Assembly (NCBI GenBank): GCA_902541825.1
Contig: CACBRY010000001.1
Location: 95,924-136,826, forward strand
From: an uncultured Pelagibacteraceae bacterium
Lineage (GTDB): Bacteria > Pseudomonadota > Alphaproteobacteria > Pelagibacterales > Pelagibacteraceae
Length of the DNA stretch: 40,903 nucleotides
Direction of reading: 5' to 3'
In this document: positions 5,897 through 40,903 of the stretch, piece by piece
Position numbering within the stretch: position 1 is the stretch's first letter
How the letters are laid out: each line of letters starts with the position of its first letter
The notes under the pieces: generated by a model
The model's input: only the letters and a program-made list of their open reading frames with translations
Told to the model about the DNA's origin: nothing
The model's database searches: none
Position numbers and translations under genes: made by a program

Positions 5897-6748
5897 TTAT
5901 TTATAATCTAATTCAATTAAATTCTTTTTAAAAATATTATTTAATTTCTTAACAAATTCTTTATCAAAGTTTTTTTGCCAATTATTCTTTGGACCTAAAT
6001 GGAAAAAAGGTATCTTTTTTTTTTCTTCTCGTGAGATAATGGACTCACTAAACCCGTTTGTTTCTTCTATTTTTTTTAAGTTTTCAAAAGAAGTAGTGTT
6101 AACAGCGTTTTTAGCTTTTTCCCTACTAAATCCACTTTTATCATTTGTTAGTTTATTTATGAATTCTATTATCTCTTTAAATACAAAAAAAGTTTCTGAC
6201 AATAAATCTTCATATTTTAAAAATTTTGTTGGTAATAATTTGTTATTTTTCCAAGATTGATAATTTAATTCCCAAGAACTTATAAATTGATAATCACTAT
6301 AATCCTTTATCTTCTTAAAATCATAAGTAAAGTTTTTTTTATCTTGCATCACCCCTAAAGCTTTATCGTGATCGATTTGAAAATGTCTGGACATGGAGTC
6401 TAAAACATTTCTAGGATCTCTTACTATGTAAATTCCACCAAGTGAATTAGCTCGATTTGTAAAATCATAATTTCCCAATTTCACTAAAGCATTATGTGTC
6501 TTGAAAAATTTTATCTTTCGGTCTTCATTAATTTTTTCTTGCGCTAAGACCCATAATCTCGAAGTATCTCCTGGTATTGATAAATCATAATCAAAACTTT
6601 CTAAATATTTTTTTACAGGAAACTGTTGAATATTCTTTAAATGATTATCACCAAGAAAAATGCCGTCTTTTGTATAATAATAAGCACTAATCAACGATCT
6701 TAACCATGTGTTTCCATTTTTAGGATAAGAAGCGAGCCAAATTATCAT
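5897..6748 (-). CDS. Sulfotransferase domain protein (paralog 1)
   Basis: N-terminal PAPS-binding loop SYPKNGNTWLRS, YIVRDPRNVLDS 3'-phosphate-binding motif, C-terminal GPKNNWQKNF. Confidence 0.88.
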   Translation of the reverse strand: MIIWLASYPKNGNTWLRSLISAYYYTKDGIFLGDNHLKNIQQFPVKKYLESFDYDLSIPGDTSRLWVLAQEKINEDRKIKFFKTHNALVKLGNYDFTNRANSLGGIYIVRDPRNVLDSMSRHFQIDHDKALGVMQDKKNFTYDFKKIKDYSDYQFISSWELNYQSWKNNKLLPTKFLKYEDLLSETFFVFKEIIEFINKLTNDKSGFSREKAKNAVNTTSFENLKKIEETNGFSESIISREEKKKIPFFHLGPKNNWQKNFDKEFVKKLNNIFKKNLIELDYK

Positions 6749-20934: not shown

Positions 20935-21515
20935 TTATAGTTATCTAAATATTTTTTAATTTTTTCAATTGGAAGTCCCATTATTGTATTTTCGTTTCCA
21001 TCAATACTTGAGAATAAATCTCTTCCCTCACCCTCTATCTGATAAACATTATAAGCATATAACGCCTCATCCGAAATTTTTGATAAATATTCTTTTAGTT
21101 CTTTCTCTGTCATTTTTTTCATTGTCAGTAATGCTTTATCAGTATGATTCCATACCATAGATCCGTTTTTGGAGATACAAACTGAGCTTATTAAATAATG
21201 TTTTTTACCATTGAGTTTTTTTAAAATTCCTAAAGCTTCATTTCTATCGTTAGGTTTTGATATCAGTTCTCCCTCTAAGTCAATTACACTGTCAGCACCC
21301 AAAACTAAATCATCAACATATTTATTGCTTACTTTGTTAGCTTTTAATTCAGCTAAATTTTTTGATATGATTTCAGGTGTAGCTTTTTCTTTTAATAAAC
21401 TTAGTTTCACAATATCTTCATCTACATTTGATGGTTTTACCTCATTTAAAATATCATTTTCGTCCAATATTTTTTTTCTAACCTTGCTTTTAGAAGCTAG
21501 AATAATTTTAGGCAT
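20931..21515 (-). CDS. Maf family nucleotide pyrophosphatase
   Basis: IILASKSKVRKKILDEN...LVLGADSVIDLEGELISKP...YQIEGEGRDLFSSIDGNENTIMGLP. Confidence 0.95.
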   Translation of the reverse strand: MPKIILASKSKVRKKILDENDILNEVKPSNVDEDIVKLSLLKEKATPEIISKNLAELKANKVSNKYVDDLVLGADSVIDLEGELISKPNDRNEALGILKKLNGKKHYLISSVCISKNGSMVWNHTDKALLTMKKMTEKELKEYLSKISDEALYAYNVYQIEGEGRDLFSSIDGNENTIMGLPIEKIKKYLDNYK

Positions 21516-22332
21516 TTTCTTTGTATATTTCGTATATTTTGATTACAGAGGCTGCGGTTTCCTCTACAGATTTTCGTGTTACATCAATGAGTGGCCATTT
21601 ATATTTTTTGAAAGTATTTTTTGCCATATCTACTTCTTTTTTAATTTGTTCCAAATCTGTATATAATTTATTTTTATTTTCTTTAAGAGAATTCATCCTG
21701 TTTTTTCTAATTTCTACAAGTCTTTCTGGCTCGGTATTTAATCCAATAATGCATGAGATTTTAGGGTTCTCTCTTAAAACTTCTGGTAAAGAGTTTTCAT
21801 TTATCAAAGGTATGTTGGATGTTTTAAAACCTTTGTTAGCTAAAAAGATTGCGGTTGGGGTTTTGCTTGTTCTGCTTACTCCTAACAAAATTATATCAGA
21901 CTCTTTTATTTCTTTTACAAGATTGCCATCATCATGGTTCATTGTAAATTGAATTGCTTCGATTCTTTTATAATATTCTTCATCAAGAGCATATTGTCCA
22001 CTTGGTTGGTGTGAGGCTTTTTGATTTAAAAGTTTTGAAAAACTTAATATTAGATCACCTAACACCCCAAAGCATGGAATTTTTTTCGTGTCACTATTTT
22101 TTGCAAGATACTTTGCCAAATTACTATCAACAATGGAGTATAAGATTATTGAGTTTTTTTCTTTTTCTGCACTTTCTAAAATTTTTATAATTTGATTTTC
22201 TGTTCTGGTAAAAGAATAAGTATGTATTTTATAATTTATATTTTTAAATTGGGCTTTGATGGCTATAAAAATTCGATCAAGAGTTTCACCAGTTGCATCT
22301 GATATAAGATAAATTTGATATAAATTACTCAT
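21508..22332 (-). CDS. ppsR: Pyruvate, water dikinase regulatory protein (PPSR/DUF299 family)
   Basis: YLISDATGETLDRIFIAIKAQF, GVSRTSKTPTAIFLANKGFKTSNIPL. Confidence 0.93.
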   Translation of the reverse strand: MSNLYQIYLISDATGETLDRIFIAIKAQFKNINYKIHTYSFTRTENQIIKILESAEKEKNSIILYSIVDSNLAKYLAKNSDTKKIPCFGVLGDLILSFSKLLNQKASHQPSGQYALDEEYYKRIEAIQFTMNHDDGNLVKEIKESDIILLGVSRTSKTPTAIFLANKGFKTSNIPLINENSLPEVLRENPKISCIIGLNTEPERLVEIRKNRMNSLKENKNKLYTDLEQIKKEVDMAKNTFKKYKWPLIDVTRKSVEETAASVIKIYEIYKENA

Positions 22333-22615
22333 GTATAATGTGTGTATAAATTTGTAATATTTTTATCATCATTGAAAATTTTCCATATTTTTAAATTTAT
22401 GCTGTAAAACAATGCTTTTATTAACAAAATTAAACATGTTAAAATCTCCAGTAATCATTCGGTGTATTTAGTTAATAAGCTTCAATTTTGCGTATATATT
22501 TATTAAAATTTAAACTCTAAATGTTAACAAACTGTTTATAAAATGTTCAATAAATTTAATCACCATTATTCACAGAATATACTAACATTACAATTAATTA
22601 TATTTAATTATTAAT
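22333..22615. other. oriC: Candidate chromosomal replication origin (oriC)
   Basis: 283-bp AT-rich noncoding gap between ppsR and hemE, the Caulobacter/Rickettsia oriC context. Perfect DnaA boxes TGTGTATAA (22341-22349, - orientation) and TTATTCACA (22566-22574, +), plus one-mismatch box TGTTTATAA (22533-22541). Confidence 0.75.
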
Positions 22616-23617
22616 ATGTCTCCAATCGAAGAAGTAATAATAAACAAGAAAAGTGATATTAATCCTATTTGGATAATGAGACAGGCTGGTAGATATTTAC
22701 CTGAATTTAGAGAAATAAGAAAACAAAATCCTGATTTTATCAAATTATGTCTTAACGAAAAATTATCAAGTGAGATCACCTTACAACCTTTGAAAAGATT
22801 CGATTTGGATGCAGCAATAATTTTTTCTGATATCTTAATGTTACCATATGGCTTAAATCAAACTGTTGAATTTAAAAAAAATGTAGGCCCATTACTTGGT
22901 AACTTTGACTTAAAAGAAATTTCAAATATTGAAGAAGTTGAATTTGTAGAAAAACTATCTTCCGTCTATGAATTAATTAAATTAGTAAGTAATTCTCAAT
23001 TTACTAAAAATAAAACTACCATAGGATTTGTTGGAGCACCGTGGACTTTATTGGTTTATATGATAAATAAAAAATCACCAAAATTAAGCTTGAATGAAAA
23101 TTTTTTTGAAGACAAATATTTAATTGATAAAATTCTTAAAATTTTAGATAAATTTTTAAAAATACATATCAAAAATCAAATTGATAGTGGTGCTCAGATA
23201 ATTCAAATCTTTGATAGTTGGGCTGGTCTGCTAAAAGAAAAAGATTTACCTCATTACATTTATGACCCCACTTTAAGCTTGGTTAATTATACTAAATCCT
23301 TAAATGCGCCCGTTATCTGCTTTCCAAGAGGTATTAAAAATTACAAAAATTATTGTGAAATTATTAAACCAGACGCAATTTGCATTGATTATGAGGTTGA
23401 TCCAGCCAAAATTAATAAAGAAATAAACATTCCTGTTCAAGGTGGAATGGACCCAAAGCTTTTGCTTTCTGATAAAGAAAACTTAAAAAAAGAAACAACG
23501 AAATATTTAGATATATTTAAAGATCATCCATATATATTTAATTTAGGGCATGGCGTTCTTCCAGAAACGGACCCTAATATGATGGACTATTTAGTAAAAA
23601 CTGTGAAAGATTATTAA
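22616..23617 (+). CDS. hemE: Uroporphyrinogen decarboxylase
   Basis: PIWIMRQAGRYLPEFREIR, DAAIIFSDILMLPYGL, GFVGAPWTLLVYMI, FNLGHGVLPETDP. Confidence 0.97.
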   Translation: MSPIEEVIINKKSDINPIWIMRQAGRYLPEFREIRKQNPDFIKLCLNEKLSSEITLQPLKRFDLDAAIIFSDILMLPYGLNQTVEFKKNVGPLLGNFDLKEISNIEEVEFVEKLSSVYELIKLVSNSQFTKNKTTIGFVGAPWTLLVYMINKKSPKLSLNENFFEDKYLIDKILKILDKFLKIHIKNQIDSGAQIIQIFDSWAGLLKEKDLPHYIYDPTLSLVNYTKSLNAPVICFPRGIKNYKNYCEIIKPDAICIDYEVDPAKINKEINIPVQGGMDPKLLLSDKENLKKETTKYLDIFKDHPYIFNLGHGVLPETDPNMMDYLVKTVKDY

Positions 23618-26387: not shown

Positions 26388-27230
26388 TTAAAGATAGCCA
26401 AGTTCTTTTAATTCATTATTAAGCTCAGTTTCCAAATCTTTCTGTATTTTTGTTGGTAGTGTCTTTTGCCAATTATTGCTAGGTCCTTTGTTAAAGAATC
26501 TTACTTTTTCACTTCTTCCTTTAACGAAAACGTTTTCTGTAAAATCACCATTATCTTCAATTTTTTTTAATGCTTCGAAGGAGGTTGATTTTATAATATT
26601 TTCTTTTTTGGTATCAGACACCTCTAAATCAATGTAATTTTTAAGAAATGCAATAATTTTATCAATTTCTTGATGTATATTTTTTACTAAGTCCTCGTAT
26701 TTGATTATCAACAAATTTTCATTATCGTTCGTCCAAAACTTATAATGTTCTTTCCACGATCCAAGGTATGTAATAACGTTTCCACCTCTTAACTCAATTT
26801 CTTTACCTGGAGAAAGAATTTTTGATGTGAGAAGAAACTTTTTAGACTCTTCAATAGATTTGCTGAAGTGATTTGATATGGAGTCAATAAGATTTCTAGG
26901 ATCTCTAACAATGTAAATCGTAGCTAGTGTGCATTCTTTATTGGTAAAAGGATAATTGTCAATTTTACAGTTTAAATGATGTGTTTTGAAAAATTTTATT
27001 TTAGTGTCTAAATTAATTCTTTCTTGAGATGTAATCCAATGCTTTTTGATTTCGTGAATATTATTATAATCTTGTGTGAAATGTTCTAAAAACCTTCTTT
27101 GTGGATATTGGTCAATTTTTTTTATACTAGGAAAATCAAATATTCCATTCTCTGTATAGACTAGAGAAGAAATTATAGATCTGACCCATGTATTTCCACT
27201 CTTCGGATATGATGCTACCCAAATAATCAT
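26388..27230 (-). CDS. Sulfotransferase domain protein (paralog 2)
   Basis: SYPKSGNTWVRS PAPS loop, YIVRDPRNLIDS, GPSNNWQK. Clear paralog of 5897-6748. Confidence 0.88.
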   Translation of the reverse strand: MIIWVASYPKSGNTWVRSIISSLVYTENGIFDFPSIKKIDQYPQRRFLEHFTQDYNNIHEIKKHWITSQERINLDTKIKFFKTHHLNCKIDNYPFTNKECTLATIYIVRDPRNLIDSISNHFSKSIEESKKFLLTSKILSPGKEIELRGGNVITYLGSWKEHYKFWTNDNENLLIIKYEDLVKNIHQEIDKIIAFLKNYIDLEVSDTKKENIIKSTSFEALKKIEDNGDFTENVFVKGRSEKVRFFNKGPSNNWQKTLPTKIQKDLETELNNELKELGYL

Positions 27231-30587: not shown

Positions 30588-31234
30588 TGGATAACTTAAT
30601 TTTAAATTCCTATTCCAAAATTTCCAATTTAAATGTTTCACGTGAAACTTGTAATGAGCTTGAGAACTTAATTACGATGATACAGGAAAAAAATCAGAAA
30701 ATTAATATTATAAGTAAAAAAACGTATGAAAAAGAAGCAATAAGAGAGCGCCATATAATTGATTCAGTGCAAATTATTGATTTTGTTGATTTAAATTGCA
30801 ATACAACCTCAGATTTAGGAACAGGGGGTGGAATGCCTGGATTAATAGTGGCTATAGTGATGAAAAAAATTAAAAACGACCTGAAAGTAAATCTTTATGA
30901 AAAAAGCTACCACAAATGTGCTTTCCTTAGAGAAGTTTCAAAAAAATTAAATTTAAATACAGAAATAATTCAGAAAGATATTTTTTCACTTAAAAATATT
31001 GAAACAGGAACAATTATGTCAAGGGCGTTTAAGCCAATGCCTGTGATTTTAAACTTGGTTAATGAAAATTTTAAAAAATATAAAAATATTATTTTTTTTA
31101 TGGGAAGTAGTGGAAGAAAAATTCTTAATGAAACACTTCAAGAGTGGGATCTAGATTATGAAGAAAAAAAAAGTTTAACAAGCAACGACTCGTTTATATT
31201 AAATATTAAAAAAATTAAAAAAAAAATTTCATGA
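30587..31234 (+). CDS. rsmG: 16S rRNA (guanine527-N7)-methyltransferase RsmG
   Basis: RERHIIDSVQIIDF, TSDLGTGGGMPGLIVAIVM; NVSRET N-terminal segment. Confidence 0.95.
   Translation: MDNLILNSYSKISNLNVSRETCNELENLITMIQEKNQKINIISKKTYEKEAIRERHIIDSVQIIDFVDLNCNTTSDLGTGGGMPGLIVAIVMKKIKNDLKVNLYEKSYHKCAFLREVSKKLNLNTEIIQKDIFSLKNIETGTIMSRAFKPMPVILNLVNENFKKYKNIIFFMGSSGRKILNETLQEWDLDYEEKKSLTSNDSFILNIKKIKKKIS
30634..30649. promoter_or_regulatory. parS: parS centromere-like site (ParB binding)
   Basis: TGTTTCACGTGAAACT matches parS TGTTNCACGTGNAACA at all but the last base; inside the rsmG ORF, about 0.6 kb upstream of parA. Confidence 0.88.
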
Positions 31235-36875: not shown

Positions 36876-37493
36876 TTAATTTTTTTTCCTACTGTCACCT
36901 TGTTTAGGGTCTCCAATTATGTAGGGGTTTTCTTTTATATTTTTATCAATGATTTCTTTTTTATATTTTGTAGCTTTTTTAAGTATACTTAAGTTGAGAT
37001 CAGCAACTAAATCATTATTATTTTTACTAATTGAACAATTAGTTAAATTGTCAGAGCATTTTTTTAAATAGACATTTATATCTAAAGCATCTGACCTTAT
37101 TTCATTTGTTAAAAATCTTACAGAAATTTTTACAGATTCATTAGGTGAATTATTTTCACTGTACCAATCAGTGATTACTATTCCACCACTATAATTAGCA
37201 GAAGCTAAAGGCATAAAATCTAAAGTATCAAGTGTTGCACGCCACAAAGGATTTGCACTAGCAAATTCATAATTGGTCCCTGTCTGGGAATTTCCACCCA
37301 TTAATCTAAAACCTCTACCTTCATTAATGTTCTTTTCAACTCTTTTTCTTGGATCTGGCGGAAAATCTTTAGCACTAACTTTTTTAGGCTTTAATGCGTT
37401 ACAAGCAGTTTGTGTTAAAAGTATTAAAATAGATAATAAAATTAGTATACTTTTCTTTAAAGCTATTATTTTGTGCATAATCTTTATTAACAC
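36876..37493 (-). CDS. DUF3576 domain lipoprotein
   Basis: Signal/lipobox [22 protein letters not shown]..., [36 protein letters not shown]. Start may be 37478. Confidence 0.85.
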
Positions 37494-37532
37494 ATAATAT
37501 TCTGTTTAAAATTAAATATGTACATTACTGTT

Positions 37533-37563
37533 CTAAAAGTGAGAAAACACAAGCTAAAAGTGA
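37533..37563 (+). repeat. Tandem 10-bp direct repeats CTAAAAGTGA, 21 bp apart, upstream of porin
   Basis: CTAAAAGTGA at 37533-37542 and 37554-37563. Confidence 0.6.
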
Positions 37564-37667
37564 TGTAAAAATGCAACACTAATTGAAATTATTACCTATA
37601 TAATTAAAATTTTATAATGGAATTAGTGATATTTGCTAAAAATATCCTGTTTATAATTAATTATAAA

Positions 37668-37673
37668 AAGGAG
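37668..37673 (+). promoter_or_regulatory. Shine-Dalgarno sequence for porin gene
   Basis: AAGGAG 7 nt before ATG at 37681. Confidence 0.75.
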
Positions 37674-37680
37674 TATATTT

Positions 37681-38607
37681 ATGAACAATTTAAAAAAAGT
37701 AGGGTTAACAGCTTTAGCTACTACTCTTGTTTCAACAGCCTCTGTTGCTGGTGAGCTAAGTGTTTCAGGTGGTGCAGCTTTATCTTACACAGGTCTTAGC
37801 ACCGCTTCAGGCACTAACCCGTGGGCTATGGGTGACAGTGTTAAGTTTAACGGTAGTGGAGACTTAGACAATGGTATGACTGTATCAGTATACTATGAGT
37901 TAGATGGTGGTACTTACGATGACTACAATCTAAAATTAGGTATGGGTGATATGGGAACATTATCATTCTCAGGTGCATCAAGCTCAGGAAGCGGTGTTGA
38001 TAAACTAAAAGATATCGTTCCAAATGCTTACACACCAGTATACGAAGCAACTGATGCTACAGACAGTGGTTTAATTGATGCTTCAGGTAATAACCAAACT
38101 GGTCAATGGGGTTATGACATGACTGTAGGAAATGCAGCATTGTCAGCATCTTACAATCCAAAACCAGCAGCTGGAAAAGAAGCTGAAACTGGTTTTGCTA
38201 TTGTTTACAGTGGCTTAATGGACGGTTTAGAGTTAAGTGCAGGTTACTTTGACGATGGTGATGAAGCAGAAAACGACACTTTAGGTATTAAATACACTAT
38301 GGGTGCAATGACTGCTGCTTACCAAATGACAAAAGTAGATTACACTGCAACTGGTACTAATGATCAAGATGCAACACATGTTGGTGTATCTATAGCTGTT
38401 AATGACTCATTATCAGTGTCAGCTGGTCAACAAAGCATCGAGTTTGACGGTACTGCAGAAGATGAGAAAAACTCAGGTGTTGGTGCTTCATATACAATGG
38501 GATCGATCTCAATGTATGGTGGTTTCAATAAACTTGAGAACGCAAATGGATCAACTTCAGCGAAAGATGTTGAAGCTTCTATCTTTAATATTTCGTTTGC
38601 ATTCTAA
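37681..38607 (+). CDS. Outer-membrane porin (general bacterial porin-like beta-barrel)
   Basis: Signal peptide MNNLKKVGLTALATTLVSTASVAG, alternating beta-strand pattern, terminal Phe (NISFAF). Confidence 0.9.
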   Translation: MNNLKKVGLTALATTLVSTASVAGELSVSGGAALSYTGLSTASGTNPWAMGDSVKFNGSGDLDNGMTVSVYYELDGGTYDDYNLKLGMGDMGTLSFSGASSSGSGVDKLKDIVPNAYTPVYEATDATDSGLIDASGNNQTGQWGYDMTVGNAALSASYNPKPAAGKEAETGFAIVYSGLMDGLELSAGYFDDGDEAENDTLGIKYTMGAMTAAYQMTKVDYTATGTNDQDATHVGVSIAVNDSLSVSAGQQSIEFDGTAEDEKNSGVGASYTMGSISMYGGFNKLENANGSTSAKDVEASIFNISFAF

Positions 38608-40350: not shown

Positions 40351-40903
40351 ATGAGTTCTCGAATATTAATAATATATGAATATCAAATTTTATACCAAGT
40401 ATTAAATGAAATTAGTGAATGTTTAAATTGTAAAATTATTCAATCTAATAATAAGGATTTTAAGGAGTTAAAGTTTGATCCAAAGAACAACTATTTGATT
40501 ATCTCAGAAAAAAAAATTGAGGGGGTTAAGAATATTTTAATTTTAGATAATCTCCCAATTAAATTTGAACAGCTTATTGAAATGATCAATATAAAGTTTT
40601 TAAAAAATAAATTTTTAGATCAATCACATATTAAATTAGGTGAATATAATTTAGATTTGAATTCCAGAAAAATTTCACTTGCAAATAAAAACTTAAGTTT
40701 AACTGAAAGAGAAACAAATTTGATAATCTTTATTAAAGAAAAAAAAGATGTTACGATTAAAGAATTACAAAAAATGGTCTGGGATTATTCACCTAATTTA
40801 GATACACACACTGTTGAAACACATATTTATAGATTAAGAAAAAAAATGAAAGAAACTTTTGGAGACGAAGATTTTATTTCAAATACTAATAATGGTTATT
40901 CGA
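40351..40903 (+). CDS. OmpR-type winged-helix regulator with degenerate receiver domain (3' truncated by window)
   Basis: Manual translation from ATG 40351 is open to the window end: MSSRILIIYEYQILYQVLNEISECLNCKIIQSNN...LSLTERETNLIIFIKEKKDVTIKELQKMVWDYSPNLDTHTVETHIYRLRKKMKETFGDEDFISNTNNGYS. Trans_reg_C pattern is clear. Not in the ORF track. Confidence 0.85.
   Translation, partial: MSSRILIIYEYQILYQVLNEISECLNCKIIQSNNKDFKELKFDPKNNYLIISEKKIEGVKNILILDNLPIKFEQLIEMINIKFLKNKFLDQSHIKLGEYNLDLNSRKISLANKNLSLTERETNLIIFIKEKKDVTIKELQKMVWDYSPNLDTHTVETHIYRLRKKMKETFGDEDFISNTNNGYS

Follow-up and report, generated by a model that had tools for sequence, protein, structure and literature searches.

Layout and conservation of the ppsR–hemE gap

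The DNA analysed here (the window) is a stretch of 40,903 nucleotides that ends contig C1 (positions 95924–136826) of a SAR11 assembly comprising 873 kb in 41 contigs, which is 74% complete. Within the window, the genes ppsR (21508–22332, minus strand; Kinase-PPPase, PF03618) and hemE (22616–23617, plus strand; URO-D, PF01208) diverge from a noncoding gap of 283 bp (22333–22615). The AT content of this gap (82%) exceeds that of the window as a whole (71%), as in hemE-type origins. A preliminary description of this DNA had singled out the gap as a large noncoding interval in an otherwise densely packed genome and as a probable replication origin. Both the size of the gap and the surrounding gene orientations are as reported there. 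No other spacer of near-fixed length in the neighbourhood comes close to it in size: most of the others are overlaps or a few bases long, two measure ~60 bp and the one between rho and mnmE varies in length.

We fetched 110 related loci, nearly all of which carry Pelagibacteraceae or Pelagibacterales labels, which places the window in SAR11. In 105 of them, ppsR and hemE bound a gap of 261–283 bp; excision of these gaps yielded 81 distinct sequences. Their length is nearly constant, with a median of 282 bp, a 5–95% range of 271–282 bp and a value of exactly 282 bp in 54 of the 81 cases. One of the loci, contig L048, belongs to a metagenome-assembled genome named Flavobacteriaceae, yet carries SAR11 hemE and ppsR (88% and 85% identity) and is probably mis-binned or misnamed.

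Pairs of gap sequences have a mean identity of 0.746 vs 0.455 at the fourfold sites of hemE; among divergent pairs, the two values are 0.701 and 0.396, with saturation of the fourfold sites at 0.36. Judging from these alignments, strong selection acts along most of the gap length, since its identity lies far above that of the hemE fourfold sites. Around 22443–22465, the sequence varies freely among the 81 gaps.

Predicted DnaA boxes and AT-rich elements

Scoring of 9-mers against TTATNMACA over the 81 gaps produced five clear peaks (22418 +, 22522 −, 22341 −, 22533 − and 22566 +) and a weaker sixth one (22544 −), corresponding to six predicted DnaA boxes. The two perfect TTATNCACA boxes noted in the preliminary description are indeed present. 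One of them, B1 (TTATACACA; 22341–22349, minus strand), is separated by 8 bp from the start codon of ppsR and matches at 7/8 or better in 93% of the gaps. The other, B5 (TTATTCACA; 22566–22574, plus strand), has a C at position 6 (22571) in 80 of the 81 gaps, whereas no other box has a C there in nearly all relatives; in B2, this position is an A in 75 of 81. The third, one-mismatch box of that description, B4 (TTATAAACA; 22533–22541, minus strand), was likewise recovered and scores at least 7/8 in 88% of the gaps. Another one-mismatch box, B2 (TTATTAACA; 22418–22426, plus strand), had been missed; it is of the relaxed type (TTATWMACA), matching TTATNMACA at 8/8 in 93% and at no less than 7/8 in all 81 gaps. 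The degenerate box B3 (22522–22530, minus strand) reads TTGTTAACA in the window and TTATTAACA in most relatives and in the family consensus, and it scores at least 7/8 in 95% of the gaps. The weak box B6 (22544–22552, minus strand) reaches this score in 48% of them and has a strongly conserved TGTT core. We read this arrangement as one universal strong box (B5) accompanied by several weak ones.

B3, B4 and B6 share the same orientation and follow each other in steps of 11 bp, with B6 as the third unit of the array, and B5 lies 22 bp, or two helical turns, from B6. Same-strand spacings of 11 bp were observed 101 times vs 2 expected, a count that comes from related genomes and hence not from independent events. 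The window gap contains four relaxed boxes vs 0.19 in Markov shuffles, none of 2000 shuffles reaching four, and its relatives carry 3.26 per gap on average vs 0.21 expected. For perfect boxes, the 43 matches in the 873-kb genome correspond to ~0.014 per 283 bp, near the 0.02 estimated previously.

Apart from the boxes, the gap contains a near-invariant TGTAAAA block (22403–22409) that is not a DnaA box, in which positions 22404 and 22406–22409 are identical in all 81 gaps, 22405 in 80 and 22403 in 78. Two segments are candidates for an unwinding element. The first, at 22479–22515, is a conserved block between B2 and B3, to the left of the array, and consists of a conserved GCTTCAATTTTGC followed by an AT-rich TATATATTTATTAAAATTTAAAC; a stretch starting near 22491 is the second least stable one in the family average. 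The AT-rich centre previously placed at about 22490–22520 is real; the lowest stability of any 30-mer in the gap is nevertheless seen at 22583–22613, adjoining hemE. This 30-mer forms part of the alternative candidate, an AT-rich segment at 22576–22615, which is probably shared with the hemE promoter or leader and includes a −10-like TATACT motif (22578–22583) conserved in relatives.

The box cluster stands out at the genome scale. In 800 kb of the complete relative G003, two or more relaxed boxes within 283 bp occur nowhere but in the gap, and in 300 kb sampled from G020, the gap is the top cluster and the sole place with more than two. Among 100 of the 103 sites listed for the host genome, no other cluster contains four boxes, and the next densest group among these consists of three TTATTAACA boxes on one strand within 63 bp (G000:C7:26783–26845). 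The window itself contains a second box-like group at 37472–37687, between genes for a DUF3576 and a Porin_4 protein, composed of TTATGCACA (−), TTATTAACA (+), TTATAAACA (−) and TTATGAACA (+). At least two of its boxes are kept in close relatives, and none in G020, G026 and G224. We rejected this group as a rival origin, given that one of its boxes overlaps the start codon of the porin gene, that the group fades in relatives and that it is absent from these three genomes; it is possibly a regulatory region.

Distant relatives and chromosomal position

The preliminary description had proposed conservation of the boxes in orthologous ppsR–hemE gaps as a check, and across the 81 distinct gaps they are indeed conserved. 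In other genera of the family, ppsR and hemE are separated by ~258–283 bp, with boxes at shifted places and with a box 5–8 bp from ppsR also kept in many genomes; in two loci from these genera (L118 and L124), the strict pattern detected no box in the gap. In genus g2, represented by the complete genomes G001 and G007, hemE, hemH and hemJ are missing at this place (L231, 2283–2637; L230). Here, ppsR lies opposite rho, and the 353 bp between them retain three TTATAAACA boxes, one of them 5 bp from ppsR. The sole hemE match elsewhere in g2 is ~30% identical, and the sequences suggest that the heme genes were lost or replaced in this genus. Conversely, no ppsR was found in five genomes of family f2, in which another leftward gene, by our reading of its sequence maf, faces hemE with 275–281 bp between them. 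Six of the seven f2 gaps retain boxes, the exception by the strict pattern being L138. Since the boxes outlive either neighbouring gene, they are not simply parts of the hemE or ppsR promoter.

GC skew was sampled on 20-kb stretches of five complete relatives, with 40 stretches for G003, 20 each for G026, G005 and G011 (1,308,759 bp) and 15 for G020. The skew is weak (R² 0.08–0.35) and mostly reflects gene-strand bias, so that we treat it as supporting rather than decisive. With the terminus fixed opposite the origin, the fitted origin lies 3, 81, 30, 4 and 0 kb from the gap in G003, G026, G005, G011 and G020, respectively. A better fit than that of the gap was obtained for 0–11% of positions, the upper value applying to G026. 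Fits with a free terminus are looser (27–320 kb from the gap), with G020 preferring a position 320 kb away and G011 one 124 kb away. In G003, the fitted terminus falls near the antipode, at 670–680 kb. Along the contig that contains the window, the cumulative skew reaches its minimum at ~120 kb, a bin edge, and the gap is located at 118.3 kb. The skew minimum, another check named in the preliminary description, is therefore at or near the gap in this contig and the five complete relatives, albeit in a weak signal. Skew at fourfold sites was too noisy to place the switch, and a search for dif with a general proteobacterial consensus returned scattered matches with 2–3 mismatches that did not clearly exceed the reversed control.

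A parS site (TGTTTCACGTGAAACT; 30634–30649, plus strand) lies within rsmG, in its 5' part, ~8 kb from the gap, and is closely followed by parA-parB. Sites matching TGTTTCACGTGAAACA with at most one mismatch are located 7–18 kb from hemE in nine of nine genomes, and five genomes of family f2 have one at a distance of 9–10 kb; exact sites number zero or one per genome in the 61 genomes searched. In the genus, ~62 kb separate hemE from dnaA, which lies downstream, and it is the gap, not dnaA, that has parS nearby.

The gap as a probable replication origin

Collectively, the conservation of the gap, its box array, the uniqueness of the cluster, the skew, the linkage to parS and the independence of the boxes from the neighbouring genes support the earlier proposal, and we conclude from these sequence features that this SAR11 bacterium very probably (probability about 0.94) replicates its chromosome from a single origin (oriC), the ppsR–hemE gap. 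We assign the putative origin to the entire gap (22333–22615), based on its near-fixed length, its conservation above fourfold sites, the densest box cluster and the position of the skew switch. We infer that DnaA would bind the strong box B5, and also B1, and assemble on the weaker boxes B6, B4 and B3, whose single orientation and 11-bp steps would place them on the same face of the helix. The resulting filament may melt the adjacent AT-rich stretch, most likely at 22479–22515 or else at 22576–22615, where the helicase would be loaded and from which two forks would depart, with the nearby parS–ParAB set segregating the new origins.

The gap could instead be merely a divergent regulatory region that harbours the ppsR and hemE promoters, perhaps under the control of DnaA, with the origin located elsewhere nearby, for instance at dnaA. 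The conservation of the TATACT motif and of the gap ends would suit such a role, and skew, which cannot separate places within ~60 kb, does not by itself exclude dnaA. However, the boxes persist in g2 without hemE and in f2 without ppsR, and the central part of the gap shares in its conservation and constant length. Moreover, no box cluster is present in the dnaA stretch sampled in G003 (120–140 kb), and parS lies near the gap rather than near dnaA. Together, these observations make this explanation very improbable. Strong noncoding conservation could also point to a small RNA encoded in the gap, by analogy with CcnA of Caulobacter, which is linked to the origin. CcnA is described as a noncoding cell-cycle RNA (PMC8959179). 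Yet the gap has no Rfam match up to E = 1, its consensus fold amounts to −0.09 kcal/mol with zero compensatory changes, and it contains no terminator-like site. On the basis of these three results, we rejected an RNA gene in the gap, which we regard as very improbable.

With the ppsR–hemE gap taken as the origin, an analogy can be drawn with oriC of Escherichia coli, which combines strong boxes with arrays of weak, close-set DnaA sites on the same strand beside an AT-rich unwinding element and is not adjacent to dnaA. The SAR11 gap appears to share the strong boxes, the weak phased array, the AT-rich element and the distance from dnaA, but differs in gene context, array period and box order. 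In gene context, it resembles the origins of Caulobacter and Rickettsia, which sit between hemE and a COG1806 gene (ppsR), as the preliminary description had stated for the hemE-flanking gap (PMC1914354). The Caulobacter crescentus Cori and the Rickettsia oriC share with it this gene pair, DnaA boxes and an AT content above the genome average (PMC1914354), whereas the SAR11 gap is shorter (~282 bp vs 383–404 bp), has mostly relaxed TTATWMACA boxes in an 11-bp phased array and, in the window, lacks a CtrA or IHF consensus site. The predicted origins of Wolbachia, Ehrlichia and Anaplasma (hemE–COG1253) are also hemE-linked and have few DnaA boxes and, in these reduced genomes, a relative paucity of CtrA sites (PMC1914354); in these bacteria, the ppsR/COG1806 gene is apart from hemE, whereas the two genes still adjoin in the SAR11 genus.

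The CtrA site TTAA-N7-TTAA is absent from the window gap and occurs in 23 of the 81 relatives, which by our estimate is about the chance level for such AT-rich DNA. Since a comparative analysis detected no ctrA in Pelagibacter (PMC2877005) and CtrA sites are relatively scarce in related reduced genomes (PMC1914354), such sites are not required of an origin in this group. The IHF site WATCAANNNNTTR has no match in 22333–22615 by its strict consensus, from which an actual site may have diverged. GANTC (CcrM) sites are nearly absent from the gaps (mean 0.04), and a CcrM homologue has been reported in SAR11 (PMC3973325). SAR11 metagenomic coverage is V-shaped, pointing to a single origin, in a study whose relevant passages give no origin coordinate (PMC9589681).

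These comparisons support the view that the gap is an expected, pared-down member of the hemE-type family of alphaproteobacterial origins, whose points of interest are the phased array of relaxed boxes and the lack of consensus sites for CtrA and IHF. It is tempting to speculate, at slightly worse than even odds, that SAR11 has a nearly DnaA-only origin of ~282 bp, in which one strong, universal box is combined with weak TTATWMACA boxes in helical phase and from which control sites for CtrA and IHF are missing. If so, initiation would be set chiefly by DnaA and not by a cell-cycle circuit of the CtrA type. Among the papers searched, we found none that names the ppsR–hemE gap as the SAR11 origin, nor any that pairs DoriC with Pelagibacter; DoriC-type databases may well predict it. 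SAR11 bacteria rank among the ocean's most abundant cells, and a base-level map of their putative origin would anchor growth estimates from metagenomic coverage (peak-to-trough). Genetic tools for this group are few, and the gap offers a candidate fragment on which a replicating vector might be based; it may also show which parts of an origin survive genome streamlining.

Two further features of the surroundings deserve mention. A regulator gene at 40351–40902, which runs off the window end, matched only Trans_reg_C, with no receiver match in its N-terminal part. The rho–mnmE spacer, whose length ranges from 41 to ~1700 bp among relatives, is a variable insertion spot ~4 kb from the putative origin and contains in the window a gene (26388–27230) whose product is similar to that of a second one at 5897–6748; both proteins share the sequence MIIW[LV]ASYPK[NS]GNTW... 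and look sulfotransferase-like by eye.
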